Part shown: positions 39,451 to 55,795 of the stretch, piece by piece
How the letters are laid out: each line of letters starts with the position of its first letter
Numbering within the stretch: position 1 is the first letter of the stretch
Assembly (NCBI GenBank): GCA_030684575.1
Contig: JAUXVD010000003.1
Coordinates: 186,001-250,000 of the forward strand
Reading direction: 5' to 3'
Source of the DNA: Nitrospirota bacterium
GTDB taxonomy: Bacteria > Nitrospirota > Nitrospiria > Nitrospirales > Nitrospiraceae
Length of the DNA stretch: 64,000 bases
Notes under the pieces: model-generated
What the model was told of the DNA's origin: nothing
Database searches by the model: none
What the model saw: the letters and a program-made list of their open reading frames with translations, nothing else
Program-made: the position numbers and the translations under genes

Positions 39451-40797
39451 ATGGCCAATGCGCTGCTCTATGACCGTCTGCAATTCGCCTTTACCGTCAC
39501 GTTTCATTATCTCTTTCCGCAATTGACGATGGGGTTGGCGCTGCTGTTGCTGTACCTGAGGAGCCGGGCGCTCGCCATCGGGGACGACCATTACCAGCAG
39601 GTCGCGAGGTTCTGGACAAAGATCTTTGCCTTGAGTTTTGCTTTCGGTGTCGTGACCGGGATCCCGCTGGAATTCCAGTTCGGTACCAATTGGGCGAAAT
39701 TCTCTAATTTCGCCGGCGGTGTGATCGGCCAGACGCTGGCGATGGAGGGACTGTTTGCGTTTGTTCTGGAGTCGTCGTTTCTTGGCATCGTGCTGTTTGG
39801 GGAGGGGCGGTTTAGCCGCCAGGTGCAATGGGCTGCATCGTTGATGCTCTTTCTCGGTTCCTGGCTTTCCGGTTATTTCATTCTGGCGACGAACGCGTGG
39901 ATGCAACATCCGGTCGCCTACACGGTCGCCCCCGATGGACGGTTGTTCGTCGATAGTCTTTCCGGCCTGCTCACGAATCCTTGGCTGTTCTGGCAATATG
40001 CCCACAACATGACGGCCGCAGTCGTGACCGCCTCGTGTGTCATGGCTGCGGTCGGTTCATTCTATCTTCTGTCCGGTCAGTATGTGAGCTACGCGAAGAC
40101 CTTCCTCCGTATCGGCGTGGTGACGGGCGCCATCGCCACCGCGCTGATGATCTTTCCGACCGGCCACGAGAACGCCAGGCAGGTTTTTGAGCATCAACCG
40201 GTCAAGGGCGCCGCATTCGAAGGGCTCTTCAAGACCGAGCGAGGCGGCGCCGATATGATGCTCATCGGCCAACCGAATATCGAAACTATGACGATCGACA
40301 ACCCGCTCGTCGTGCCGGATGCGTTGAGTTTTGTGCTCTTCTACGAACTCTATGCCACGGTGAAAGGGCTCGATGCCTTTCCACGTCCTGAGTGGCCAGA
40401 CAATGTGGCGCTGCTTTACTATGCCTACCATATAATGGCCGGGCTCGGAACCATGTTGGTATCGGTTATGGGATTGGCGCTGCTCTGGCTTTGGCGGGGG
40501 CGATTGTTTACCGCGAACTGGCTGCTCTGGCTACTCATGCTTGCTGCGCCGTTTCCCTATCTCGCCACCACGGCCGGCTGGATGACCGCCGAACTCGGTC
40601 GTCAACCCTGGCTGGTATACGGCCTGCTCCGCACGGCTGACGGCGTCTCACCGCTGGTGCATTCCGGCAACGCGCTGTTTACGCTCCTCGGATTTCTCGG
40701 GATCTATCTCGTATTGGGGTTACTCTTCCTCTTCCTGATCGTGGAAACAATCAGGCATGGCCCGGCACGCGTGTCACCTGAATCGTCGCACTCATAG
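39451..40797 (+). CDS. cydA: Cytochrome bd-type quinol oxidase subunit I
   Basis: CydA (448 residues) carries the hemes of the bd oxidase, which reduces oxygen with quinol electrons in the cytoplasmic membrane. The N-terminal RLQFAFTVTFHYLFPQLTMG holds the heme-ligand His, followed by GIPLEFQFGTNW and EGLFAFVLESSFLG with the conserved Glu pair. It is shorter than E. coli CydA, consistent with the short Q-loop (CIO-like) subgroup. cydB follows after 11 bp. No small CydX-like frame was recognised. Confidence 0.94.
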   Translation: MANALLYDRLQFAFTVTFHYLFPQLTMGLALLLLYLRSRALAIGDDHYQQVARFWTKIFALSFAFGVVTGIPLEFQFGTNWAKFSNFAGGVIGQTLAMEGLFAFVLESSFLGIVLFGEGRFSRQVQWAASLMLFLGSWLSGYFILATNAWMQHPVAYTVAPDGRLFVDSLSGLLTNPWLFWQYAHNMTAAVVTASCVMAAVGSFYLLSGQYVSYAKTFLRIGVVTGAIATALMIFPTGHENARQVFEHQPVKGAAFEGLFKTERGGADMMLIGQPNIETMTIDNPLVVPDALSFVLFYELYATVKGLDAFPRPEWPDNVALLYYAYHIMAGLGTMLVSVMGLALLWLWRGRLFTANWLLWLLMLAAPFPYLATTAGWMTAELGRQPWLVYGLLRTADGVSPLVHSGNALFTLLGFLGIYLVLGLLFLFLIVETIRHGPARVSPESSHS

Positions 40798-40808
40798 GAA
40801 CCGGTACG

Positions 40809-41843
40809 ATGGAAACCTTCTGGTATGTTGCCGTGACGTTGATGCTGGCTGTGTATGTTGTTCTTGACGGTTTCGACTTCGGCCTGGGCATCGTCTATCG
40901 TCTCGTCGCGAAAACTGAAGCGCACCGGCGTGCAGCGTTGGTCTCCATCGGCCCTATCTGGAACGGCAACGAAGTATGGCTGATCGCCGCGGGCGGTCTG
41001 TTGTTCTTCGCCTTTCCCAAAGCCTATGCATCGGGGTTCAGTGGATTCTATCTGGCGTTGCATATGGTCTTGTGGTTGCTGATCGCCCGCGGACTTGCGC
41101 TTGAACTCCGCTCGCACGTGGATCACCCATTGTGGCGGCAGTTTTGGGATGTGGCGTTTGCGGGAGCGAGCCTGCTATTGGCTGTCGTGTTCGGCGTGGC
41201 CTTGGGAAATCTTATTCGCGGCGTGCCGTTGAATCACGAAGGCTATTTCTTCGTAGTGCTCTGGACAAATTTCATGACAGGACCGCAGCCGGGTATACTC
41301 GATTGGTTCACCATCCTCATAGGGTCCACAAGCGCGGCGATCCTTGCCCTTCACGGCGCAAGTTATCTGGCTGTAAAAACGGAAGGCGAGTTGCGGGAAC
41401 GGGCGAGACGAGCGGCCTGGCTGACTGGACCGGTCGTGGTCATTCTGGTCGGACTGGCCCTGACCGCCGTTCCCTTTGTTCAACCTCTAGTCTATCTCAA
41501 CTATGCCGCCCATCCCATCGGCCATGTCTTTCCCTTTCTCTGCATAGCGACGCTCGTGTCGGCTCTTGAGATGCGAAGACGCAATTGGGATGCGGGAGCA
41601 TTTTCCGCGACGAGTCTCTTCATCCTCGCGATGCTGGCCAGCACGGCCTGGGGGCTGTACCCGAACATTCTGATTGCCACGGATGATCTTACCAACAGCT
41701 TGACCGTCACCAATGCCACTGCCGGCGACTATGGGATGCAGGTCGGTCTTTGGTGGTTCCTGATCGGATTTAGTCTGCTCCTTACCTATCAAGCCTATGC
41801 GCATCGGGCGTTCTGGGGAAAGGTCAAGCTCGACGAGGACTAA
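40809..41843 (+). CDS. cydB: Cytochrome bd-type quinol oxidase subunit II
   Basis: CydB (344 residues) is the second membrane subunit of the bd oxidase, with about eight to nine hydrophobic segments. The N-terminal VVLDGFDFGLG and GPIWNGNEVWLI, with the conserved Trp/Glu, are diagnostic, and DLTNSLTVTNA lies near the end. It is co-directional with cydA. The complex would give high-affinity oxygen use or protection from oxidative and nitrosative stress; that role is inferred from the family. Confidence 0.94.
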   Translation: METFWYVAVTLMLAVYVVLDGFDFGLGIVYRLVAKTEAHRRAALVSIGPIWNGNEVWLIAAGGLLFFAFPKAYASGFSGFYLALHMVLWLLIARGLALELRSHVDHPLWRQFWDVAFAGASLLLAVVFGVALGNLIRGVPLNHEGYFFVVLWTNFMTGPQPGILDWFTILIGSTSAAILALHGASYLAVKTEGELRERARRAAWLTGPVVVILVGLALTAVPFVQPLVYLNYAAHPIGHVFPFLCIATLVSALEMRRRNWDAGAFSATSLFILAMLASTAWGLYPNILIATDDLTNSLTVTNATAGDYGMQVGLWWFLIGFSLLLTYQAYAHRAFWGKVKLDED

Positions 41844-42288
41844 CCCTGCTTGCTCTGTACGTTCGCTCGCTCGCACTCACCCAACTACCAGCCTATCGGC
41901 TAGGACTAGGCCACGGCCCGTTCTTCTAAGGCCGCCGGAACTAGAAAACCGAATCTCCAAATGCACCGATTGGCAAAGAATCTTCCTCTCATTGATCTGT
42001 GTCATCTTGGCACAGTGCGCCACAATACTTCATTCTTCATCGTCCTCCTTCAGGCTTGCTAACCTACCTCATGCAGTAAGCACACGATAAGTGGCCTTCT
42101 ATTCGAACGTGCCTGACCCGAATAAAATCATGAGGGTTGGCATCGACATTGCTGACTGGACTGATAGGTATGTGCGAAACGCGAGATTCCCATCACCGTT
42201 GAGGGTCACAAAGAGTTACGGAAGCAAACGCCGATTTGGAATGGTTCGACGACGGGCCTTATTTTTTCTCTAACCTACAGGAGACAGT
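41844..42288. other. 445-bp gap with no recognisable gene
   Basis: Short frames only; base composition is lower in GC than flanking genes. It presumably carries the promoter of the small exported-protein gene, but no confident -35/-10 pair was found. Confidence 0.45.
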
Positions 42289-42576
42289 ATGAAAAGGCAT
42301 CTCGCTCTGTTCCTGTTCACGCTGATCAGCAGTATCGGAATCGCGACCCTGTCGTACGCAGCAGGCTCTATGCCTGTTGAGGGGGATATCCTGAAGATTG
42401 AGGGGGAGTATTACACGGTGCATGATACGGTCGGCCACAACGTGCGCCTGCATGTGAACAAGACGACTCATCTGGAGGGCGCCTTCAAGGTCGGGGACAA
42501 GGTCGAGGCTTACGTCACGGATAAGGGGCATGCTCGGTCCATGTATCATATAAAAGACTTTACCCTGGTCCCCTAA
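42289..42576 (+). CDS. Small exported protein (DUF-like, beta-barrel look)
   Basis: A 95-residue protein with signal peptide (MKRHLALFLFTLISS, cleavage near SYAAG). The mature part has alternating strands: DILKIEGEYYTVHD, HNVRLHVNKTTHLEG, DKVEAYVTDKGHA, ending in HIKDFTLVP. This pattern is like small periplasmic OB-fold proteins; I recall similar short proteins in Nitrospira. AGGAG lies before the ATG. Function unknown. Confidence 0.75.
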   Translation: MKRHLALFLFTLISSIGIATLSYAAGSMPVEGDILKIEGEYYTVHDTVGHNVRLHVNKTTHLEGAFKVGDKVEAYVTDKGHARSMYHIKDFTLVP

Positions 42577-42875
42577 GCCGAAAGATATCGTTCTGAATGC
42601 TTTGTCGTCGAAGGAGGAGAGTGAGGAGCAAGTTATACGTACGGGGGGCTATCTCGCATGTGTGAGTGTATTTCTGGCTCTAGGAGCCTTGACTTAGCTC
42701 CATGGAGTGCAGCCTAGGACCGCAAGCAATTCCAAAGATGGGAGAGCGGTACTCGTTGCAGAAAACCTTGTCGCTCTGGCTGAGTGATCCGGCTCGTGCC
42801 GGCGGATCTATCGGTCAACAAACGCAGGATGGGACGCGACTCCATGAGGTCCATGCATCAATCTAAATATCTAGG
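42577..42875. other. Gap before modA 3' end, nothing recognised
   Basis: About 300 bp without a supported gene between a small exported protein gene and the convergent modA. Confidence 0.4.
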
Positions 42876-43661
42876 TCATCCATTCAATGAAACAGAATCA
42901 AATCCATACTTGACCAAAAGCTTCTGTATGCGGGGACTCATTAAGAAATCGGAAAATTGGATTGCGACCGGAAGGGATTCCGCTCGACAAGTCCAGACCA
43001 CCGCGTGCCCGAACTGGACGGGCATATACGTCCCTGACGGAGCTTCGTCTATGATGCGCACTTGGCCGCCATTGATGGCGTCCACACGAAAGACGAGGCC
43101 CACGTCGACCTTGCCTGAATGAATGAGGTTCATGATATCTACGCTATGTGACGCAAGGTAAATGAGGGAACGGCTTTGATATCTTGGATTGAGTTCGGTG
43201 AGCATCTGGGCCGTCGTATCTCCCAAGGAGGATGTCCGAGGATCTCCGAGGGCAATGCGTGTGGTTCGATCCGGTAGCGCGTCGCGAAAAGAGATCGGTA
43301 TTGCGTCGAAGAAGGTTGACATCACGAGCACGAGAGAGGTCTGTGCGTAGATCCGCGGTCCGCCGTTCAGCGTTAGGCCTTTCTTGTGGAGATTTTGGAC
43401 CTCCTCAGTCCCTGCGGCGAGGAAAACATCGATCGGGGCGCCTTTTTCAATTTGCCGACGAAGCGTTTTCGAGGGGCTGTAGACGACGCGAACTGTCGTT
43501 CCATACTCTTTCTCGAACATCGGTACAATTTCCTCGAGGGTGGCCTTCAAGCTGGGTGGGGCTCCAAGCGTCAGCGGCTCAGCCTGCACAGATTCCCAGA
43601 TTCCAGGGATGACTAGCCCAACTCCCAACAAGACCACGACCTTGAGCGTTCGAATATCCAT
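42876..43661 (-). CDS. modA: Molybdate ABC transporter substrate-binding protein, ModA-like
   Basis: A 261-residue periplasmic binding protein of the ModA family. After a signal peptide (VVVLLGVGLVIPGIWESVQA) come the family blocks TLGAPPSLKATLEEIV, VRVVYSPSKTLRRQIEKGAPIDVFLAAG, DPRTSSLGDTTAQ and SGKVDVGLVFRVDA. It would bind molybdate or tungstate, although the signature AASL-type start is replaced by GAPPSL and other oxyanions are possible. modB and modC are not in the window. AGGAGG precedes the start. Confidence 0.85.
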   Translation of the reverse strand: MDIRTLKVVVLLGVGLVIPGIWESVQAEPLTLGAPPSLKATLEEIVPMFEKEYGTTVRVVYSPSKTLRRQIEKGAPIDVFLAAGTEEVQNLHKKGLTLNGGPRIYAQTSLVLVMSTFFDAIPISFRDALPDRTTRIALGDPRTSSLGDTTAQMLTELNPRYQSRSLIYLASHSVDIMNLIHSGKVDVGLVFRVDAINGGQVRIIDEAPSGTYMPVQFGHAVVWTCRAESLPVAIQFSDFLMSPRIQKLLVKYGFDSVSLNG

Positions 43662-44145
43662 ATGAACCTCCTATTACATGCCCCACCAGCGATTCATGGC
43701 TACCAAGAAATTCAATATGCGTCCGGAGATGTGTGTGCGATCGGACATCTAAGATCATCGCAAGATCAATACCAACTGACGCATTCATTCAATGGCCGGG
43801 AGCCAGGCACTGTAACTAGCCAATTTATTATGAATTGTCGTCGTGTGTTTTCAGCACTCTGTAAGCCGCATGTCTGGCGAATAGTGAGATTCCGCACATT
43901 GCGCGCATTGTTATATTGCACACCTACATTCATGCTGCGTGGCTACCGGACTTGGTCCGATAGATCAGTCAACGGTTATTATCCTAATAAATTATGCACC
44001 TTCGTCCAGTTCACGCTCGCGTGTCGGATGAATATGATGAGTGGTAAGGACCTTGCACTATGAGGCCTTGTCTTGATCAGAACCGGTTTTATTCAAGCGG
44101 GGCGCATATGACCGTACATCAACCGACTTTTAAGGGGCCTTTCGC
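43662..44145. other. 484-bp AT-rich gap upstream of the RND operon
   Basis: No recognised gene. A 133-codon open frame exists on the plus strand but has no family resemblance or ribosome binding site. The promoter of the RND operon must lie here or in the modA divergent region; no consensus pair stands out. Confidence 0.5.
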
Positions 44146-45645
44146 ATGAATCAGCTTGTCCTCATCGCCCTGAAACGGCCCTATACCTTCGTCGTTATGT
44201 CCATCCTGATCGTGCTGATGGGCACCCTGACGGTGCGTCACATGCCGACTGACGTCTTCCCGAATATCACGATTCCCGTCACCTCTGTGGTCTGGATTTA
44301 TAACGGTATGCTGCCGCAGCAAGTGGAAGGGCGCATCACATATCTATTCGAACGCTTCCTGACCTCGACGGTCGAAGGCATCAAGTACATCCACAGTCAT
44401 TCCTACTTTGGTAGCAGCATCACCAATATTTATCTTCAGGATGGAGTCGACGTGGGCAGGGCCGAAGCGGATATTGTGGGCATTGCGCAGAATGTCGTCA
44501 AGGCGCTGCCGCCGGATATTTCCCCGCCCATGGTTATGCGCCTCGCGCCATCCTCGATACCGGTGGCCATGCTCCAAATTAGCTCCGACAACATGACGCC
44601 AGCAGAGCTCTATAATCTCGCCTACATGCGTATCCGCCCCCTGCTGGTGACGGTGCCTGGGATCGTCCTGCCGCACCCATACGGAGGCCAGGACATGCAG
44701 GTTATGGTGAACCTTGATCAACAGAAATTGCTTGCTCGTAACCTGACGCCAGCGGATATTCACGATGTGCTCACGCGGCAATATCTCGTGCTGCCGTCCG
44801 GGGACGTCAAGATCAAGGAGACCGACTGGATCGTCATGACGAATGCCTCACCTCTGAAAATTGACCATTTCAACGATATTCCGATCAAGCGGGAAGGCAA
44901 CGCGTTCGTGTACTTGCGCGATGTCGCGACCGTACGTCTCATGGGCCGAGTGCAACAGAACGCGGTGCTGGTGAAGGGCAAACAGACTGTCATCATCGTC
45001 GCCATGAAGAGCACAGAGGCCTCGACTCTGGACGTTGTGGCTGGGATCAAGAAGATGATCCCGCGTGCCGAGCAAGTCTCTCCGGAGGGCGTGCAGGTTA
45101 AGCTCCTCGACGACGCCTCGACCTTCGTGAAGGATTCGATTTCTGACGTCCTGCATGAAATGCTGATGGCCGGTGCGTTGGTCGGCCTTATCGTGCTGTT
45201 GCTGCTCGGCTCATGGCGAGCCACGGTCATCGTCTGGACCTCGATCCCTCTGTCCATTTTGGTCGCCATCATCGGTCTGCATCTGCTCGAAGAGACGATC
45301 AACGTCATGACCTTGGGGGGGTTGGCGCTGGCCGTCGGCATCTTGGTCGACGACGCGACCGTGATGATCGAAAATATCGATCGCCATATCGAGATGGGGA
45401 AGCCGCTTGAGCAGGCCATCGTCGATGCCGCCAATCAGATCGTCGTCCCGACGCTCGTCGCCACCCTCTGTATCGCGATCGTCTGGCTCCCGCTCTTCCA
45501 GCTTGGCGGTGTCGCAGGCTACCTGTTCAAACCCATGGCGGAGGCGGTCATCATCGCGATGCTGGCTTCTTTTATCTTGTCGCGCACCTTGGTGCCGACG
45601 ATGGCGAAATATATGCTAAAGGGGCACCATGTCGAAGTTGCATGA
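44146..45645 (+). CDS. RND efflux permease, N-terminal half
   Basis: This 499-residue protein is the first half of an AcrB-like proton-driven permease. It begins with the first membrane helix (PYTFVVMSILIVLMG), has the porter region with NMTPAELYNLAYM, and TM2-TM6, including LAVGILVDDATVMIENIDRH where the Asp pair of the proton relay sits. It ends in the cytoplasmic linker (LLKGHH-like MLKGHHVEVA). The second half is a separate overlapping gene. Together they total about 1060 residues, the length of a full RND subunit. Confidence 0.85.
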   Translation: MNQLVLIALKRPYTFVVMSILIVLMGTLTVRHMPTDVFPNITIPVTSVVWIYNGMLPQQVEGRITYLFERFLTSTVEGIKYIHSHSYFGSSITNIYLQDGVDVGRAEADIVGIAQNVVKALPPDISPPMVMRLAPSSIPVAMLQISSDNMTPAELYNLAYMRIRPLLVTVPGIVLPHPYGGQDMQVMVNLDQQKLLARNLTPADIHDVLTRQYLVLPSGDVKIKETDWIVMTNASPLKIDHFNDIPIKREGNAFVYLRDVATVRLMGRVQQNAVLVKGKQTVIIVAMKSTEASTLDVVAGIKKMIPRAEQVSPEGVQVKLLDDASTFVKDSISDVLHEMLMAGALVGLIVLLLLGSWRATVIVWTSIPLSILVAIIGLHLLEETINVMTLGGLALAVGILVDDATVMIENIDRHIEMGKPLEQAIVDAANQIVVPTLVATLCIAIVWLPLFQLGGVAGYLFKPMAEAVIIAMLASFILSRTLVPTMAKYMLKGHHVEVA

Positions 45646-47320
45646 GCCTCAGAGGCAGCTCGGCGCGGGGCCCTCGCCGAACGTCTTTGTCCTATTTCAG
45701 AAGGGGTTCGAACGCGGCTTTAATCGGTTCCGCGAGCGCTACGGTCTGCTGCTCGAAGAGGCGATCGTGCACCGCAACACCTTCGTCATGATCGCTCTGG
45801 CCATCGCGGTGGCCTCGCTGTCCCTCTTTTTCTTCCTCGGGCGCGATTACTTTCCCGAGATCAGATCGGGGATCATGACGATGCATATGCGGGCGCCCCT
45901 CGGGACACGCATCGAGGTGTCAGGACGCATTGCCACTCTTGTCTCCAACAGCATCGAGGAGTTGCTGGCCGGTCAGGTCGAACATATCGTCAGTAATTGC
46001 GGCCTCCCGGTCGGACCGCACAACCTCGCCTTCATTCCGACACCGACAATCGGCTCTCAGGACTGTGACCTGACGATCCTTCTGAAAGACGAAAAGTCTC
46101 CGGTGTGGGATTATCGTCGCATTCTCCGCAAGGGCCTGAAGGAGCGCTATCCGGGAACCGTCTTCACATTCCAGCCGTCCGATCTGACGGCGAAAATTCT
46201 CAACTTCGGCGCGCCTGCGCCGATCGACGTGCAGATCAGCGGGCCGGACATGTACCCCAATTTCGAGTTCGCCCGCACATTGGTAGGCAAGTTTCGCGAG
46301 ATCCCCGGCGCTACGGATGTGGTGATCCAGCAGACGATGCGCACGCCGACTCTCATGGTCGAAGGCAACCGCTCGTTCGGACTGGGTGTCAACAGGACGC
46401 TGAAGGACATCGCCGACAATCTGATTATGACGACCGCCGGGAGCCAACAGGTTGACCAGGTCTATTGGCTCGATCCCAGTACCGGCATGTCGTACCTGAT
46501 CAATGTCTATACGCCACAGTCGCAGGTCAACAGCCTGAACAGTCTCAAGACCATCCCGGTCGAGTCCTCGGGCAATTCTTCGAAGGAGGGGGTGCAGCTT
46601 CTCGGAAATTTAGCCGATATTTCTGCGGAGGGAACGCCGGGCGTGATCACGCATGGAAACATTATGCCGCTGTTCAATATCTATATCTCCGCCGAAGGGC
46701 GCGACCTCGGCGGTGTGCTGGCGGATGTCGAAAAGGTTGCCGAGAGCATGGAAGGCGCGTTGCCCCGCAGCGCCAAGCTCAGCATCCATGGGCAGGCCTC
46801 ATTGATGCACGATGCCTATTCCCAGCTGATCTTCGGACTGCTTGCCGCAATCGTGCTGGTCTATCTGCTGATTGTCGTCAACTTCCAATCCTGGCTGGAT
46901 CCCTTCATCATTATTACAGCCCTGCCAGGTGCGTTGGCAGGCATTGCATGGGCGTTGTTTTTGACCCATACGCGTCTGTCGGAGCCCGCACTGACGGGCG
47001 CCATTCTGACCATGGGCACAGCGACCGCCAATTCGATCCTCGTCGTCTCCTACGCCAGAGAGCGGCTTGAAGAGCATGGCGATGCGGTGCGGGCCGCGAT
47101 CGAAGCGGGAACGACCCGCTTCCGTCCGGTGCTCATGACGGCTTCGGCCATGATCTTCGGGATGTTTCCCATGGCGACAGGGTATTCTACGAACGCGCCG
47201 CTGGGGCGCGCCGTCATCGGCGGCTTATTCGTTGCCACATTGTTCACTCTGTTCTTTGTGCCCTGTGTCTACGCTATTTTCTATACCAGGCGGTCTTTGC
47301 GTCAAAAAGGCATTGAATAA
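45629..47320 (+). CDS. RND efflux permease, C-terminal half
   Basis: This 563-residue protein supplies TM7-TM12 and the second porter repeat: ALAIAVASLSLFFFLGRDYFPEIRSG at the seventh helix, NSLNSLKTIPV, and the C-terminal membrane region with ATANSILVVSYARERL and FRPVLMTASAMIFGMFPMA. Where AcrB has the proton-relay Lys of TM10, the aligned residue here is Ala. Its ATG overlaps the first half by 17 bases and follows AAAGGGG, so it can be translated separately. A single base insertion in an ancestral fused gene is the alternative. Confidence 0.85.
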   Translation: MSKLHEPQRQLGAGPSPNVFVLFQKGFERGFNRFRERYGLLLEEAIVHRNTFVMIALAIAVASLSLFFFLGRDYFPEIRSGIMTMHMRAPLGTRIEVSGRIATLVSNSIEELLAGQVEHIVSNCGLPVGPHNLAFIPTPTIGSQDCDLTILLKDEKSPVWDYRRILRKGLKERYPGTVFTFQPSDLTAKILNFGAPAPIDVQISGPDMYPNFEFARTLVGKFREIPGATDVVIQQTMRTPTLMVEGNRSFGLGVNRTLKDIADNLIMTTAGSQQVDQVYWLDPSTGMSYLINVYTPQSQVNSLNSLKTIPVESSGNSSKEGVQLLGNLADISAEGTPGVITHGNIMPLFNIYISAEGRDLGGVLADVEKVAESMEGALPRSAKLSIHGQASLMHDAYSQLIFGLLAAIVLVYLLIVVNFQSWLDPFIIITALPGALAGIAWALFLTHTRLSEPALTGAILTMGTATANSILVVSYARERLEEHGDAVRAAIEAGTTRFRPVLMTASAMIFGMFPMATGYSTNAPLGRAVIGGLFVATLFTLFFVPCVYAIFYTRRSLRQKGIE

Positions 47321-48580
47321 ATGGGTACGATCTTGCGTGGAAGACTCTTTATCATCTCAGCAATCCTCATGTGTGTGCTCTACCTTGGCTATCGGGTGTA
47401 TGAGAGCCAAAGTGACGCCGCGCTGTTGCGCGAGACAACGCTCGAAGACGCCATCCCTACGGTGGCGACCATCCATGCCACGCCGGTGGCGCCGACCGAA
47501 ACCATTACGCTTCCCGGCAACGTTCAGGCTTGGTTCCAGGCGCCGATCTACGCGCAGGTCTCCGGCTATGTGAAGATGTGGTACAAGGACTACGGTGCGT
47601 TGGTGAAGAAGGGCGATATCCTCGCCGAAATCAACGCGCCGGCCCTCGACGCCCAGTATGCGCAGGCCAGAGCGGATCTGGAGTCGGTGCGGGCCATCTA
47701 TGCCCTCGCCGACCTCACTGCGAAGCGTTGGCTGGCGCTCCGCAAAAACCATGCGGTCTCCGAGCAGTCGATTTCGGTGAAGGTGGCAGAGGCGAAAGCC
47801 GAATTGGCGAAGGTCCGGGCAGCAGAGCAGAATGTCAAGAACTTCGAGGCATTAATCCGGTTCAAAACTATTGTCGCGCCCTATGACGGGGTCGTGATCG
47901 TACGAAACATCAACGTCGGTGACTACGTCAATAAGGAAGGCACGATCAGTAGCCCCAGTTCGGTGGCCAATCTCTTTACTGTGGCCGACGTTAGCATGTT
48001 GCGTCTCTTTGTCTCCGTGCCGGAATCGTTCGGACCCTTTCTCCAACCTGGCCTGACGGCCGAGGTGACGGTGCCGCAGTTGCCCAATCGTCGGTTTACC
48101 GCCAAATTCCTGACCGTCGCCCGTGGATTCGACGTGAACACGCGCACCGCGATCACCGTCTTTACGATTGAAAACGAGGACCGGGCTCTCTGGCCAGGCT
48201 CCTACGCTCAGGTCTCGCTCACGGCGCCGGTTGACAGGAAGGTGGTCATGATCCCGTCCACCGCGCTGGTGTTTCAGGAGCATGGCACTGAAGTGGCGGT
48301 GGTATCGGAGGACGACGGCCGCGTCCACTTTAAACCGATCACCGTGAGCAAACTCCTCGACAGCGCCGTCGAAGTGGAAGAGGGGATTTCCGCGGGCGAC
48401 CGCATCGTGAATAATCCGAATGCCGCGTTGCTCGAAGGGGACAAGGTACGCATCGTCACACCGGCACCCGGTTATGACCTCCATAAGACAGACATGCCTG
48501 CGCTGAAGGGCGCTCCCATGCCGAAGGACGCTCCCGCGCCACACGATGCGGCCGCATCAAAGGAATTACCTTCGCAATGA
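47321..48580 (+). CDS. RND periplasmic adaptor (membrane fusion protein)
   Basis: This 419-residue adaptor bridges the inner-membrane permease and outer-membrane channel. It has an N-terminal membrane anchor (IISAILMCVLYLGYRVYES), the lipoyl/barrel-sandwich region (GNVQAWFQAPIYAQVSGYVK), a helical hairpin with repeated Ala/Glu, and beta-barrel PYDGVVIVRNINVGDYV. The C-terminal tail is Pro/Ala/Lys-rich and low complexity. The ATG immediately follows the permease stop, and its own stop overlaps the next gene (ATGA). Confidence 0.92.
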   Translation: MGTILRGRLFIISAILMCVLYLGYRVYESQSDAALLRETTLEDAIPTVATIHATPVAPTETITLPGNVQAWFQAPIYAQVSGYVKMWYKDYGALVKKGDILAEINAPALDAQYAQARADLESVRAIYALADLTAKRWLALRKNHAVSEQSISVKVAEAKAELAKVRAAEQNVKNFEALIRFKTIVAPYDGVVIVRNINVGDYVNKEGTISSPSSVANLFTVADVSMLRLFVSVPESFGPFLQPGLTAEVTVPQLPNRRFTAKFLTVARGFDVNTRTAITVFTIENEDRALWPGSYAQVSLTAPVDRKVVMIPSTALVFQEHGTEVAVVSEDDGRVHFKPITVSKLLDSAVEVEEGISAGDRIVNNPNAALLEGDKVRIVTPAPGYDLHKTDMPALKGAPMPKDAPAPHDAAASKELPSQ

Positions 48581-50220
48581 CCGTCTCGATACGCCTAAAT
48601 GGCAAGCGCTTAGGAACGAGTCCGGGCGGATCCCGCATCGTTCGCGCATGCACATGCATATGGCGCAACGGTCTCTTACTGCTACTGTGCAATTTGTCGG
48701 CGTGCAGTGACTGGTTGCCACATGTCGATCTGGCGCCGGACTATTCACCGCCTCAATACGTCGTTCCCGTCTCATGGCGTGGGTCGAGTCCGTTCGTCGA
48801 GGCTAAGCCGTCTGATGCCGAATTGCGGCTGGATTGGTGGACGGCGTACAACGATCCGGTCTTGAACCGGCTTGAAGAGCAGGCCATGGCGGCCAATCCG
48901 GATTTGCAGGCCGCCGCCGAGCGGTTTGTCCAGGCACGCGATATGATGATGAAGGCCCGCTCGCGCCGTATTCCTCAGGTCGGCCTGGGGTTCGGCCCAT
49001 CGGACAACCGGCAATCAGACAATGCTCTGTTTCGTCCCCCTGGCATCCCGAACCAAGAATCGAGCGTGTCCGCCGGAGGGCTCGCGTCCTGGGAGCCGGA
49101 TTTCTGGTCGGCGATTCGTAACGCGACGCGCGTGGAGACCTACCGTGCCGAAGAACGCGCCGCCGACTACGGACTTGCGCGTCTCAGCCTGCAGGCGGAA
49201 ATCGGGGCGAATTATTTCACGCTCCGCGGCTACGACGCGCAGGCTGAAATTTATGCTCAATCGATCGATCTCTATACGCGGTCGCTCAACCTCGTCAAGG
49301 CCCAGTTCGCCGGCGCAATCGCATCGGCCCTCGACGTAGCCCGCGTGGAATCGCTGCTATTCACCACTGAGACGAAACTCGCCCAGATTGAAGGCCAACG
49401 CCAAGTGACGGAACAGGCGATTGCTATCCTCGTGAACATGGCGCCGGCCGGTTTTACCATTAAACCGATAGGTGAGCTTCGTGTGGCTAAATTTACGATT
49501 CCAGAGATGATTCCGTCAACCTTACTGGAGCGTCGGCCTGATATCGCCGGGATGGAGCGGCGGATGGCCCAGGCAAACCGCGCCATTGGGATTGCACGCG
49601 CCGCCTTTTACCCCGATGTGAAGTTCCGGATCGGCGGAGGGTTCGAAGATGCCGGCTTCAACCTGCTCTCGCTCGCCAATAGTTTCTGGTCCTACGGGTC
49701 CACTGTTTCGCTGCCGGTCTTCCAGGGCGGCTATCGTCGCGCCCAATTGCAGCAGGCCTGGTCGTCCTATCGCGAGACTGAAGATCAATACCGCTCGACG
49801 GTACTCAACGCCTTTCGCGAAGTCGAGAATAACCTGAGCCTCACGAATCGTCTCACCGTCGCGGCTGACCGGCAGGACGCCGCCGTCGGGGCCACGCTCA
49901 AGGCACAGAATCTCACGATGGAACTCTATCGGGGCGGACTGGCTTCCAGCCTTGAGCTCATTTATGCGCAGGTCGCCACGCTCACGGCGCGCATCGACTC
50001 AGTCCAGATCAAGGCAGAACTGCTGAGAAATTCAGTGGAGCTCATCCGCGCGCTTGGCGGAGGGTGGACTCGTGACCAATTGCCCGCTGACGAGCAGATC
50101 CAACCCTTCGATACGTTCCAATACACCGGCCTTGACAAACCACTGCCTGCGGGAGGAATCGATGTCAACGCGGACAATAATGCAAGGCATCATGATTTGA
50201 CCAAGCCCTCGGTTCCTTGA
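48577..50220 (+). CDS. Outer-membrane efflux lipoprotein, NodT/OprM family
   Basis: A TolC-like outer membrane factor (547 residues) forming a trimeric channel. A long basic leader precedes a hydrophobic stretch and lipobox LSAC, then DWWTAYNDPVLNRLEEQAM, a family hallmark, and two repeats of helical OEP domain (ATRVETYRAEERAADYGLARL and LERRPDIAGMERRMAQAN, AFREVENNLSLTNR). It is last in the RND operon, so the tripartite pump is complete apart from the split permease. Substrate unknown. Confidence 0.93.
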   Translation: MTVSIRLNGKRLGTSPGGSRIVRACTCIWRNGLLLLLCNLSACSDWLPHVDLAPDYSPPQYVVPVSWRGSSPFVEAKPSDAELRLDWWTAYNDPVLNRLEEQAMAANPDLQAAAERFVQARDMMMKARSRRIPQVGLGFGPSDNRQSDNALFRPPGIPNQESSVSAGGLASWEPDFWSAIRNATRVETYRAEERAADYGLARLSLQAEIGANYFTLRGYDAQAEIYAQSIDLYTRSLNLVKAQFAGAIASALDVARVESLLFTTETKLAQIEGQRQVTEQAIAILVNMAPAGFTIKPIGELRVAKFTIPEMIPSTLLERRPDIAGMERRMAQANRAIGIARAAFYPDVKFRIGGGFEDAGFNLLSLANSFWSYGSTVSLPVFQGGYRRAQLQQAWSSYRETEDQYRSTVLNAFREVENNLSLTNRLTVAADRQDAAVGATLKAQNLTMELYRGGLASSLELIYAQVATLTARIDSVQIKAELLRNSVELIRALGGGWTRDQLPADEQIQPFDTFQYTGLDKPLPAGGIDVNADNNARHHDLTKPSVP

Positions 50221-50327
50221 CTGTGGCCACAAAATTCAGTGTGAGTCTGTCGGTATCAGGAAATGATTGGTGTCGCTTCGACGCATCGTGAACGATAACG
50301 TTGCAAGGCATCGACAAGGAGACACGG

Positions 50328-50624
50328 ATGACCAATGAGGAAAAAGCCGAGAAGATTCGCCAATGGAACGATCCGGAAGAGCGAGTCACGGTCAACTTCC
50401 ATGATGAACAGGGCTTGAATGCGGAAGTAACAGGGTGTAGTGCCGAACTTGTGGATCTCTCCATCGAGACGCGCGTGACCCATATGAAGCAAAGAATTTC
50501 AGTCCCCCTAAGCCGAACAGAATTGTCAGAAGATTTGTCGCACTATACGCGGGATCCAGAGCGACCGCTGAAACATCGCCGACTGATGTTGGTTATAGAT
50601 GATACGGGTCTTCCGATCATCTAG
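50328..50624 (+). CDS. Small hypothetical protein
   Basis: A 98-residue charged, soluble protein with no recognised family. Residues 18-80 have a beta-rich look (RVTVNFHDEQGLNAEVTGCS). AAGGAG lies six bases before 50328. It follows the RND operon after about 100 bp; a link to it is only positional. Confidence 0.6.
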   Translation: MTNEEKAEKIRQWNDPEERVTVNFHDEQGLNAEVTGCSAELVDLSIETRVTHMKQRISVPLSRTELSEDLSHYTRDPERPLKHRRLMLVIDDTGLPII

Positions 50625-50850
50625 TAGCGGAGGAGGGGAGGCTGATGATCATGACGGTGTCGTTGGCACAGCAGTCTCTGGTTTCTCGATTTGATGCTAA
50701 TAATCTTGTCGTGAGGTTGTTCTGCGTCAGGCAGGACAGATTGCCTTGTACTTGGTTAGCCGGATTGCCGTGAGCAGTCACGGGTGGTTTGAGACGTCTC
50801 TTGCGTAGCCCCAAGAGGATCTGCGCACATTCGATCTCGAGCGCAACCAC

Positions 50851-51160
50851 ACGATCATTCTCCAGTCGGCTGATGCGGCGCTGATGATCCTCAATCTTCC
50901 CTTCGTCCTCATCGGGGGCAGGGTAGCCCTTCGCGCAAGGAATTGTGTCGGGGGCGCAGCGTTCTCTGGCAGTCGTGGTGCTCGGTGGCCTCGTCGGTTC
51001 GACATTCCTGCCCCTTGTCGTCCTGCCAGTCTTATACCGGTGGATAGAAACCAGACGGTCAGAATCGTTCGAGTCGATCAGGCTGCTGCCGAAGGGGCGG
51101 AACGTCTATCAGGTCATTCGTTCCTGGCAGGAGTTTTTTCTGAATATTATGGTGGCATAA
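50851..51160 (+). pseudogene. Remnant of a CusA/CzcA-type heavy-metal RND permease
   Basis: Two pieces of an HME-family RND subunit survive in different frames. The first (about 50851-50935) reads ADAALMILNLPFVLIGGRVAL, the loop after a TM helix; the second (from 50945) reads SGAQRSLAVVVLGGLVGS, TFLPLVVLPVLYRWIETRR, the C-terminal helix that in CzcA follows AEVQRPLATVVIGGL. Everything between them, and most of the N-terminal part, is missing. It is a deletion-bearing pseudogene beside the intact efflux operon. Confidence 0.75.
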
Positions 51161-51280
51161 GTCTTTCAAGTGTGGTTCGATCATAAGAAGACAGGGTTTT
51201 CTCGAAATCGGTCTCCTCTGCGGGCTGGCGCAAAGGGTATTTTGTCCGGACGATTGGTTCTATTTACAGAGGAGGCAACA

Positions 51281-52231
51281 ATGACAACAGTGATGCAGAG
51301 GTGCCTAGTCGTTATCTCTGCGGGGGTCATGAGTCTGGTTCTCGCGCAAGCGGCAAGAGCCTATGAAGAGATGCCTGTTGCCGAGGGCGGCACGCTGACA
51401 GGGACAGTCCGCCTCGACGGCAAGGTGCCTGGGCCGAAGGGGTACAACCTCACGACATTGCCGGATGCAATCTACTGCGGACGGATTTCCGATGGGCGAG
51501 GCTGGCGCTTGCTTCAGCCGTTTAATGTCGGACCGAACGGCGAGTTTCGACAAGTTGTGGTCCTGTTGGAGGATATTGAGAAAGGCAAGCCGTTCGGCAC
51601 GTATCAGATGCCGCGAATCGAAGCGGTCGATTGCCGGTTTCAGCCGTTCGTCAATGTGGTGCGCAATCTTCACGATGTCGTCGTCGTCAATATGGACCCG
51701 GCCTTTCACGACATTCAAGCGTATGAAACTTCCCGCCTGGGGCCGCGGGTTCTCTTTAATGTTCCGCTGCCGATCAGTAAGCGCTATCCGAACGAGGTTG
51801 GCTTGAGCAACCATTTTCATAAGCACTACGAAGGCGTTCCTATGGTTCAGACGATCCGGATGACGAAGGACCGCCGAATTTTCACCATGCAGTGCGGGTT
51901 TCACGCCTATATGGAAAGTTGGGCGCTCGTGCTCGATCATCCGTACTATGCCGTGACGGATCAGGAGGGAAGATTTGAGATCGGGGATATCCCTCCCGGA
52001 ACGTACAAGGCGACGATCTGGCATCCGTATCTGCATGATCCGTATGTGCAGACCGTCACGGTGAAGCCGAAGGAATCGGCGACCGCTGAGTTTACAGTCG
52101 CGGCTCCAACGGGACGTCTCTATGCCAATCAAATGGTGGAGGACGCTTTCGTTCGCTACACCATTACCGAAGACGTGCAGTCGCAAATCGTCCCTACGTT
52201 AGAGAAGCAATATCTCTCCGAAGACCGGTGA
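51281..52231 (+). CDS. Exported plastocyanin-like / carboxypeptidase-regulatory-like protein
   Basis: A 316-residue exported protein with signal peptide (cleavage near AQAARAYEE). It contains TLTGTVRLDGKVPGP, a motif of carboxypeptidase regulatory-like domains, then a cupredoxin-like region. FTMQCGFHAYMESWALVLDHPYYAVTD carries a C-x2-H-x2-M copper-site pattern, and GRFEIGDIPPGTYKATIWHP follows, as in methylamine-utilisation-type and plastocyanin-like proteins. Further His residues (FHKH) could join the site. It may be a periplasmic electron carrier or copper protein. GAGGAGG precedes the ATG. Confidence 0.75.
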   Translation: MTTVMQRCLVVISAGVMSLVLAQAARAYEEMPVAEGGTLTGTVRLDGKVPGPKGYNLTTLPDAIYCGRISDGRGWRLLQPFNVGPNGEFRQVVVLLEDIEKGKPFGTYQMPRIEAVDCRFQPFVNVVRNLHDVVVVNMDPAFHDIQAYETSRLGPRVLFNVPLPISKRYPNEVGLSNHFHKHYEGVPMVQTIRMTKDRRIFTMQCGFHAYMESWALVLDHPYYAVTDQEGRFEIGDIPPGTYKATIWHPYLHDPYVQTVTVKPKESATAEFTVAAPTGRLYANQMVEDAFVRYTITEDVQSQIVPTLEKQYLSEDR

Positions 52232-53631: not shown

Positions 53632-54927
53632 CTATCCCAGGAGGTGAGAGAAGACCGTGGCCAGGCCGAGGAAGCTGAAGAACCCGACGATATCCGTCAC
53701 GGTGGTGAGGATAATGGAGGACGATTGCGCAGGGTCCTGGTTGAGGGACTGCAGCACGATAGGAATGACGGCTCCGGAGAGCCCCGCGATACACATGGAG
53801 GCGACCATGGAGATCCCGATGACCATCGTGAGTCCAACGGAATGGCTCCACAAAAACACAGCGGCCGAGGTCGTTGTGGCAACGGCGATCCCGTTGAGGA
53901 GCGCAACGCCCCCCTCCTTGACGGTCACCCGCAACCACTGAGTCGGTCTGATGTCCCGCAGGGCCAGGCCCCGCATTACGACCGCCAGGGATTGCGCCCC
54001 GGTGTTACCGGATTGTCCGGCTACGACCGGCAGCAGGATGGCCAGGGCGGTAAATCTGGCAATCGTGTCTTCGAAAATGCCGACCACTAGTGCCGCCAAG
54101 AACGCCGTAACCAGATTGACTTGTAACCAGCCCAGCCGTTTGCGCACCGAAAATAACACCGGCGACAGTGCCCGTTCGTCTCGGCTCGCGCCGACCATGG
54201 TCTGGAGATCCGCGGTCGCGTCTTCTTGATTCGCTTTGATGATATCTTCGTTCTTGATCACGCCGAGCAGCCGTTCGTCGAGGTCGATGACTGGAATCGT
54301 CATGAACCGATGGGCAGCGAAGAGCTCGACGATTTGTTCGCGATCCTCCATCGGATGAATGCTGGGGATATCTCGCCGCATGACCGATTGCAGCCGTTCG
54401 TCGGGGTCGAGCAATAGCAGGTCTCGCACGGAGAGCATGCCGACGAGATGTCGGTGGCGATCGATGACATAAATGTCGTGCAGGTCTTTGGGCGCGCGCG
54501 TGCGCACATGGCGCACCGCCTCTTCCACCGTCAGGTCTTCGGGCAATGCGAATGCCCTGACGTCCATGAGGTTTCCGACCGAGTTGGCCGGATAGTCCAT
54601 GAATACGCGAACCTCTTCAGCCAGCGGACTCGGGAGGCGTTGCAGGAGCGCCTTTCTCCGCCTTTTGTCCAGCCGCAATAGTAAATTGGCGATGTCGCCT
54701 GGGGAGAACGCCTGCAAGACCTCCATGCCGATCGCATCAGGCAGTCCCCTCAGGGCATCGGCGGTTACCGCGGGATTCATGGTGGATAACAGCTCTGCGA
54801 TGGTTGCGGGTTTGGTATGGGCAAGCAAACGGACGATCTCTTCGGTGTCGAACGACTCTAGAAGTTGGCCGGCCTCTTGAGGATGATCGATGAAAAAGGC
54901 GTCATGGAGTTTGTGATGGAGTGCCAT
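53632..54927 (-). CDS. mgtE: Magnesium transporter MgtE
   Basis: MgtE (431 residues) is a magnesium-gated channel. The N-domain (residues 15-120) shows helical repeats; a CBS pair (about 120-245) contains LVGMLSVRDLLLLDPDE and LLGVIKNEDIIKA; the C-terminal membrane domain has the pore-lining PVVAGQSGNTGAQSLAV and GLSGAVIPIVL. It overlaps the end of the upstream MgtE-N/CBS gene by 26 bases, forming one operon with it and the MscS-like gene. Confidence 0.94.
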   Translation of the reverse strand: MALHHKLHDAFFIDHPQEAGQLLESFDTEEIVRLLAHTKPATIAELLSTMNPAVTADALRGLPDAIGMEVLQAFSPGDIANLLLRLDKRRRKALLQRLPSPLAEEVRVFMDYPANSVGNLMDVRAFALPEDLTVEEAVRHVRTRAPKDLHDIYVIDRHRHLVGMLSVRDLLLLDPDERLQSVMRRDIPSIHPMEDREQIVELFAAHRFMTIPVIDLDERLLGVIKNEDIIKANQEDATADLQTMVGASRDERALSPVLFSVRKRLGWLQVNLVTAFLAALVVGIFEDTIARFTALAILLPVVAGQSGNTGAQSLAVVMRGLALRDIRPTQWLRVTVKEGGVALLNGIAVATTTSAAVFLWSHSVGLTMVIGISMVASMCIAGLSGAVIPIVLQSLNQDPAQSSSIILTTVTDIVGFFSFLGLATVFSHLLG

Positions 54928-55795
54928 CGGTGGTCTCGCTTTCCTGTGGCAACAAGGGGGCTGCGTCTATCACGGTCGTTTCGACCGCCTGAGCCAAATC
55001 CGTCATGACACGAAGACCGGTCAAGGCATAGGCCTCCCACATCTGTAATAACGCATCGGGGAGCGACCCTGCCGTCTGCTGGACGGTGGATCGTCCCTCA
55101 ATTTGGCGGAGGGTCCGGTACCGGAGCGCTCCGAGGAAGTGCTGTTCGCGGTCAACGACCGGGAGGGTGTGATAGAGCCGCCACTGAGGGTTTTGGAGCA
55201 ATTCATCCTCTGTGGCCTCGGCCGAGACGGTTTCCAGTTGATCTTTCATAATGGTCGCGACGAGTTCGGTTGGATCAGCGACGACCAGTTCCTTTGTGGT
55301 GACCAGGCCGACGAGCACCCCATCCCGCTCGACCACGTACTGGTAGTAGGTGGCGCGTCGGGGATCGTGCTTGACTCGTTCCAGTGCGGCCGACACAGGA
55401 ATATCCGGTGGCAACGTCACGACTCGGGGGTCAGCCAGGCTGGCAGCCGTGCTTTCAGGATAGGCGGCGCTCAATCTGAGACTTGGACCGACAGTCTGGT
55501 CCACAAGGGCGAGCAGGTCCCCCTGCACGGCCGGTTCAAATTGACGGAGGATGCCGATGGCGGCATGGGTCGGCAGCGCAGCAAGAATTGCAACGGCCTG
55601 ATCCTGCGGCAGCAGGAGCAGCACGGAGGCAGCCTGGTCCGACGAAAATTGCTCTAGCACGGGTGCCGCGTCTTCCGCGGTGAAGCCACCCATCACGTCG
55701 GCGATGTCTTCAGTGGGCCACGTTTCCAACTGTTTGGCGGCGTCGAGGGGGTAGGCGTTGAAATAGGCCAGTGTCACACAAAGTTCTGCATCCAT
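54902..55795 (-). CDS. Soluble MgtE N-domain/CBS protein without membrane part
   Basis: This 297-residue protein has two regions: residues 10-115 with an MgtE-N-like helical repeat (VMGGFTAEDAAPVLEQFS), and a CBS pair at about 125-250 (YQYVVERDGVLVGLVTTKELV; LPVVDREQHFLGALRYRTL). No transmembrane helices follow; the C-terminus is short and acidic. It resembles the cytosolic half of MgtE cut off from its channel. It starts 3 bp after the MscS-like gene and overlaps mgtE, so a regulatory partner role is likely but inferred. Confidence 0.82.
   Translation of the reverse strand: MDAELCVTLAYFNAYPLDAAKQLETWPTEDIADVMGGFTAEDAAPVLEQFSSDQAASVLLLLPQDQAVAILAALPTHAAIGILRQFEPAVQGDLLALVDQTVGPSLRLSAAYPESTAASLADPRVVTLPPDIPVSAALERVKHDPRRATYYQYVVERDGVLVGLVTTKELVVADPTELVATIMKDQLETVSAEATEDELLQNPQWRLYHTLPVVDREQHFLGALRYRTLRQIEGRSTVQQTAGSLPDALLQMWEAYALTGLRVMTDLAQAVETTVIDAAPLLPQESETTDGTPSQTP

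Follow-up and report, generated by a model that had tools for sequence, protein, structure and literature searches.

Our analysis of a 64-kb stretch of genomic DNA (the window, with positions counted from its first letter) revealed an RND permease that is encoded by two overlapping half-genes. The arrangement is probably a fixed and functional gene fission of the permease of a tripartite pump, in which two polypeptides would assemble into one protomer. The gene pair had been predicted from the DNA letters as two half-genes, and we did indeed find two open reading frames (ORFs) in different frames, the second one being +1 relative to the first, with an overlap of 17 bases. An adaptor and an outer-membrane factor follow in the same operon, as is expected of an RND pump. 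The features of the locus are the following:

44146-45645, plus strand: N-half of the RND permease (TM1-6 and first periplasmic loop, 499 aa), from the ORF list; matches ACR_tran profile positions 4-495
45617-45619, plus strand: stop codon TAA in the frame of the C-half, shortly 5′ of the C-half ATG, from the sequence
45618-45624, plus strand: AAAGGGG, ribosome-binding-like stretch 5′ of the C-half ATG, from the sequence and duplex energy
45629-45645, plus strand: 17-base start/stop overlap of the half-genes, the conserved junction, from the sequence and split relatives
45629-47320, plus strand: C-half of the RND permease (TM7-12 and second periplasmic loop, 563 aa) with its own ATG; matches ACR_tran profile positions 500-1020
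47321-48580, plus strand: RND_mfp periplasmic adaptor of the same operon, family profile over cut-off
48577-50220, plus strand: NodT/OEP outer-membrane factor of the same operon, outer_NodT profile over cut-off

A profile search identified ten full-length RND genes elsewhere in the same genome; neither the genome nor its assembly is therefore prone to splitting. A search of positions 40000-52000 for RNA families gave no match.

Protein family and position of the cut

The two matches to the Pfam profile ACR_tran (PF00873, length 1021) are both far above cut-off and take up the profile one after the other, so that no part of the family profile is missing. By profile the feature is an RND permease, short of the single chain of about 1000-1100 residues, in place of which two ORFs (499 and 563 aa) are present. 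By analogy it would act like the RND permease of a tripartite pump, with a protomer built from two chains as in SecD and SecF. Neither half exceeded the cut-off of the named NCBIfam subfamilies (CusA/CzcA, MdtB, AcrB and others), which are set for full-length chains, and the secD/secF profiles were likewise below cut-off (N-half with secD, 20.6 vs 244.4 bits; C-half with 2A0604s01, 25.5 vs 148.6).

Residues 9-492 of the N-half align with MdtB 17-500 and residues 10-495 with AcrB 7-505, and in the C-half the alignment picks up again at MdtB 510 and CusA 525. Aligned to solved structures, the cut is located between residues 500 and 510 of MdtB, a region which we take to be the cytoplasmic linker from TM6 to the helix preceding TM7, going by the TM assignment of AcrB. 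With this assignment, the alignments to MdtB, AcrB and CusA bear out the original prediction, which had placed the break in the cytoplasmic linker between TM6 and TM7.

A VDD motif at N-half residues 401-403 aligns with the VDD of a solved permease, i.e. the Asp pair of TM4, presumably part of the proton relay, is present. At TM10 the C-half carries T466-A467-N468 (window positions 47024-47032) at what we assume to be the position of the proton-relay Lys of AcrB, and this AcrB-type Lys is missing. The T-A-N triplet is invariant in fused relatives too, those from other phyla included, and the TM10 Lys is not present in every RND subgroup. Since fused relatives equally have the Asp pair and lack the Lys, neither state is due to the split. 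Structure prediction for the two halves, based on 15 and 18 rows, was of poor quality, with a mean pLDDT of 47.0 and 58.6, and values this low hold no information on assembly.

Occurrence of the split among relatives

According to the named loci, the relatives belong to Nitrospira and other Nitrospirales, and many of them fall in the GTDB family of the window genome. Among 32 genomes of the genus, the sole near ortholog outside the window genome (88%) is likewise split, and many matches in 175 genomes of the family and 235 genomes of the order show a C-half frame of approximately 565-575 codons. We classified 80 loci, a subset of the matches from the genus, family and order searches. Forty-five of these are split with a 17-base overlap, one per genome, and two more (L084 and L088) are clean splits with an overlap of 32 bases. 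The 45 genomes include 11 that consist of a single contig and eight that belong to a second GTDB family of the Nitrospirales (f4). The remaining classified loci are fused (26), without N-half at a contig edge (three, of which L066 retains the junction string) or damaged, gapped or cut (four; L064, L087, L099 and L207).

A bacteria-wide scan gave a named set, consisting of the best 80 of 284 matches, which overlaps with the unnamed loci so that the counts are not additive. Clean splits account for 22 of these 80, among them the locus of the complete Nitrospira moscoviensis genome (NZ_CP011801.1), the rest being fused (54), damaged or gapped (two) or without N-half on the contig (two). All 15 named loci from outside Nitrospirota among these best 80 of 284 are fused, and more distant homologues are all in one piece. 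Of 395 genomes sampled across the phylum, 61 gave a match at E 1e-150, every one of them in the Nitrospirales. The original prediction had suggested looking for the same split in related genomes, and there it is found, with either the 17-base or the 32-base overlap. Neither a single continuous frame nor fusion in all homologues, each of which would speak against a natural split, was encountered, and purifying selection acts on either half (see below).

Two irregular loci were seen in the course of this comparison. L064 (genome G039) is the only split-clade copy in which the N-half apparently changes frame before its end; its overlap would be 14 bases, and the junction may reflect damage or a sequencing error. 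L087, the same locus as L149 (genome G161), contains an N-half with the usual junction string, then the start of another permease and then a run of N, an order suggestive of tandem copies joined during scaffolding.

Start and stop at the junction

The junction was compared over 45 split loci, L149 and L064 being left out. These sequences are related and thus not independent, and the codon counts given here overstate significance and are not to be read as probabilities. An ATG in the C frame lies ahead of the N-half stop in 45/45 loci, the overlap being exactly 17 bases in 43 of them, a conserved proximity of start and stop as is seen in coupled genes; L142 and L088 have no ATG at 17 bases and instead one at 32 bases. 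A stop codon in the C frame is found 12 bases upstream of the ATG in 38/45 loci, and the start of the C-half can therefore not be much earlier.

The overlapping codons show which bases are kept. The N-frame codon that contains the AT of the C-half ATG, with the T as its wobble base, is CAT in 42 of the 45 loci, and the preceding codon reads CAC in 35 loci and CAT in two; among His codons elsewhere CAT occurs 398 and CAC 419 times. The second base of C-half codon 2, which is a free wobble position in the N frame, is C in 38/38 core loci and gives Ser or Pro (residue 2 being Ser in 36, Pro in seven and Asn in two of all 45 loci). In the other direction, the T of the N-half stop occupies the wobble position of a codon in the C frame, and this codon ends in T in 45/45 loci. 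Both the start of the C-half and the stop of the N-half are kept against silent alternatives. This conservation favours a separate translation of the C-half, which probably proceeds via termination-reinitiation.

The original prediction had also given the C-half ATG its own AAAGGGG site. The motif is indeed present, four bases upstream of the ATG, but it is only the local form of a variable purine-rich stretch. Using a consensus sequence of the 16S tail, pairing of the bases preceding the ATG amounted to -7.0 kcal/mol for the start in the window, to a mean of -5.16 kcal/mol for the 45 split starts and to -2.47 kcal/mol for 2776 internal ATGs, and it was weaker than -3 kcal/mol in 11 of the 45 split starts. 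The purine-rich stretch is a helper and not a constant feature.

We propose that an insertion or deletion in the poorly conserved cytoplasmic linker would have shifted the second half of the gene to another frame, and that an ATG within the linker would have taken over as the start of the C-half. The operon would then yield two polypeptides, TM1-6 and TM7-12, each with one periplasmic half. A ribosome terminating at the N-half stop would reinitiate, assisted by the purine-rich stretch, at the C-half ATG, which precedes this stop by 14 bases, and with such coupling both halves would be made together. The halves would pair in the membrane and restore one 12-TM protomer, and three such protomers would operate with the adaptor and the outer-membrane channel encoded downstream.

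A different reading of the same junction is that ribosomes undergo a programmed +1 frameshift within the overlap and so produce a full-length permease, either alone or alongside the separate halves. It would agree with the +1 offset of the C frame from the N frame at all clean split loci, with the short tail of the N-half and with a shift window of just 26 bases in 38/45 split loci; in the window itself the TAA at 45617-45619 confines any change of frame to positions 45620-45645. We nevertheless regard a frameshift as unlikely. The last sense codons before the stop vary (GCA, GCC, GTT, GCT, GAA and others) with none common to all loci, and to our knowledge none of them fits a +1 shift site. 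Moreover, the conserved element is a start codon, with ATG in 45/45 loci including the two in which it has moved to 32 bases, and a frameshift requires no ATG. A programmed -1 slip at A-AAG-GGG was ruled out, the C frame being +1 and not -1.

Selection, operon context and broken genes

Strong purifying selection acts on both halves. Over 15 pairs of relatives, dN/dS ranged from 0.007 to 0.189 for the N-half and from 0.015 to 0.146 for the C-half. The operon is conserved as well, with the adaptor directly downstream of the split pump in 22/22 clean named split loci and an outer-membrane gene downstream in 18 of the 22; two of the other four end early and two are without a match. An old pseudogene shared by the relatives, or a pair in which one half has taken on an independent role and the other is decaying, is conceivable insofar as several fused paralogues in some genomes could take over the original function. 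We consider this very unlikely, since both halves are constrained in 15/15 pairs and the adaptor and outer-membrane genes have been kept next to them.

Draft genomes often contain single-base errors and a second RND gene is broken in two in the same genome, but an error of sequencing or assembly, or a pseudogene of recent origin confined to this genome, is barely conceivable at a junction that is common to 45 genomes, 11 of them single-contig, with dN/dS far below 1 in both halves and with a linker length that, in the 28 of 115 loci compared, is 1 modulo 3 in 12/12 split and 0 in 16/16 fused loci; conservation across genomes rules this candidate out. The one-base insertion that had been considered as the alternative to a natural split consequently falls as an artefact, the split being common to many genomes, and stands as history in the form of an ancestral frame-changing indel.

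The second broken gene (L068:2245-5312, minus strand, on contig C23 of the same genome) encodes a metal-type RND permease in two pieces of 691 and 381 codons, and its break lies mid-protein, inside the N-terminal half. A single frame of 1026-1052 codons is present in its relatives listed at 93%, 90%, 89% and 88% identity, and in another relative at 87% identity the frame measures 938 codons. Because the close relatives listed have one frame, L068 represents a private break or an assembly error, unlike the conserved split. Another locus, L069, contains a run of unread residues.

Probable fission and re-fusion

For the phylogenetic analysis 14 rows were dropped (contig edge, internal stop or frameshift), as were identical duplicates and then L149 and L064. 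The tree comprised 113 permeases, of which 45 are split and 68 fused, and every split row is found in one well-supported set of 65 rows, which also includes 20 fused rows, and the outgroups are fused. This tree requires at least four changes between the split and fused states, three of which are forced by its starred branches. The tree of the N-half requires four changes (three forced), that of the C-half five (two forced), and a tree of 69 rows three. A single split clade without reversal was rejected in the 69-row set, where the constrained tree was 123 log units worse (AU test, p = 0.003; the test was picked after inspection of the tree and the split label was assigned from the sequences). 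The simplest history is one old split followed by at least two re-fusions. The change counts alone would also agree with several independent splits at one spot.

The linker itself retains traces of these events. Compared with the outgroups, the split resembles in the alignment a net loss of two bases or a gain of one. The fused loci L091, L094, L140 and L145 retain the string of the split clade (CACCATG then CATGAA), which is missing from the outgroups L152, L153, L154 and L161 and from fused L124 and L090, and they differ from their split sisters by a frame-restoring change of linker length. A variant of the string is present in fused L093, and it was not seen in the nested fused loci L095 and L096. 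Since fused copies of the nested group still carry the old start/stop string, the gene appears to have been joined again in some lineages. The existence of re-fused copies indicates that the split is not indispensable. It is also imaginable, but in our opinion quite improbable, that the split has been retained for a use, be it control over the supply of half-protomers or an exchange of halves with fused or split paralogues that gives mixed pumps, and that fission acts as a reversible switch, at least one lineage having re-fused by an indel.

Comparison with known systems

RND permeases are thought to derive from a duplicated 6-TM half and are treated as single chains. The nearest known split RND protein is SecD/SecF, for which one study describes both split and fused forms, even within one genome (PMC4139356). 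As is predicted for the split permease, SecD/SecF is a 12-TM protein of RND fold that neighbouring genes supply as two polypeptides of 6 TM each (PMC4139356). However, SecD and SecF serve protein export without an adaptor or outer-membrane channel, whereas the split permease is encoded in an operon with an adaptor and an outer-membrane factor, its half-genes overlap by 17 bases and its close relatives are fused. The window genome has separate secD and secF genes in addition (L067; identified by eye, with weak matches to RND profiles).

The halves align to MdtB, AcrB, CusA and MexK and share the RND_mfp and NodT operon context of AcrB/MdtB/CusA-type permeases, but these are single chains of about 1030-1050 residues, while in the split permease the cut separates TM6 from TM7. 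An RND pump formed from two different permease gene products is known from MdtB/MdtC, as described in PMC8277102. The MdtBC subunits are full-length permeases each, whereas each gene of the split pair provides half a protomer. The GeneTack survey reported conserved frame transitions with a downstream start near the upstream stop and read them as coupling (PMC3711429), an arrangement that the split permease shares with those overlapping pairs. Among its examples are ABC transporters, a MATE protein and genes of the flagellum, and the term RND was not found in its text (PMC3711429). In the open-licence literature searched we came across no account of an adaptor-linked RND permease in split form, and the terms RND and efflux were not found in the main text of the Nitrospira moscoviensis papers searched.

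A conserved and selected adaptor-linked pump in two pieces would offer a natural test of whether the halves assemble without a covalent link, and it provides a case for studying how an indel gives rise to an intragenic start and for what reason fission is maintained. Sisters that are fused and descendants that have re-fused occur in some of the same genomes, which should aid such tests. Gene callers may mark dozens of functional pumps of this kind as frameshifted pseudogenes.

Neighbourhood of the split pump

Upstream of the split pump and divergent from it, positions 42876-43661 (minus strand) encode a solute-binding protein that is ModA-like by eye. A homologue of it precedes the split pump in 15 of the 22 named loci with a clean split, and some of the others, several in number, are cut by contig ends. 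Positions 50933-51046 (plus strand) encode a 38-residue remnant that matches the last stretch of the RND profile, positions 983-1020, and has stops upstream; it is a fossil of another RND gene adjoining the split-pump operon. Further downstream, two ORFs at 53632-55795 (minus strand), both MgtE/CBS-like by eye, overlap by 26 bases (54902-54927).
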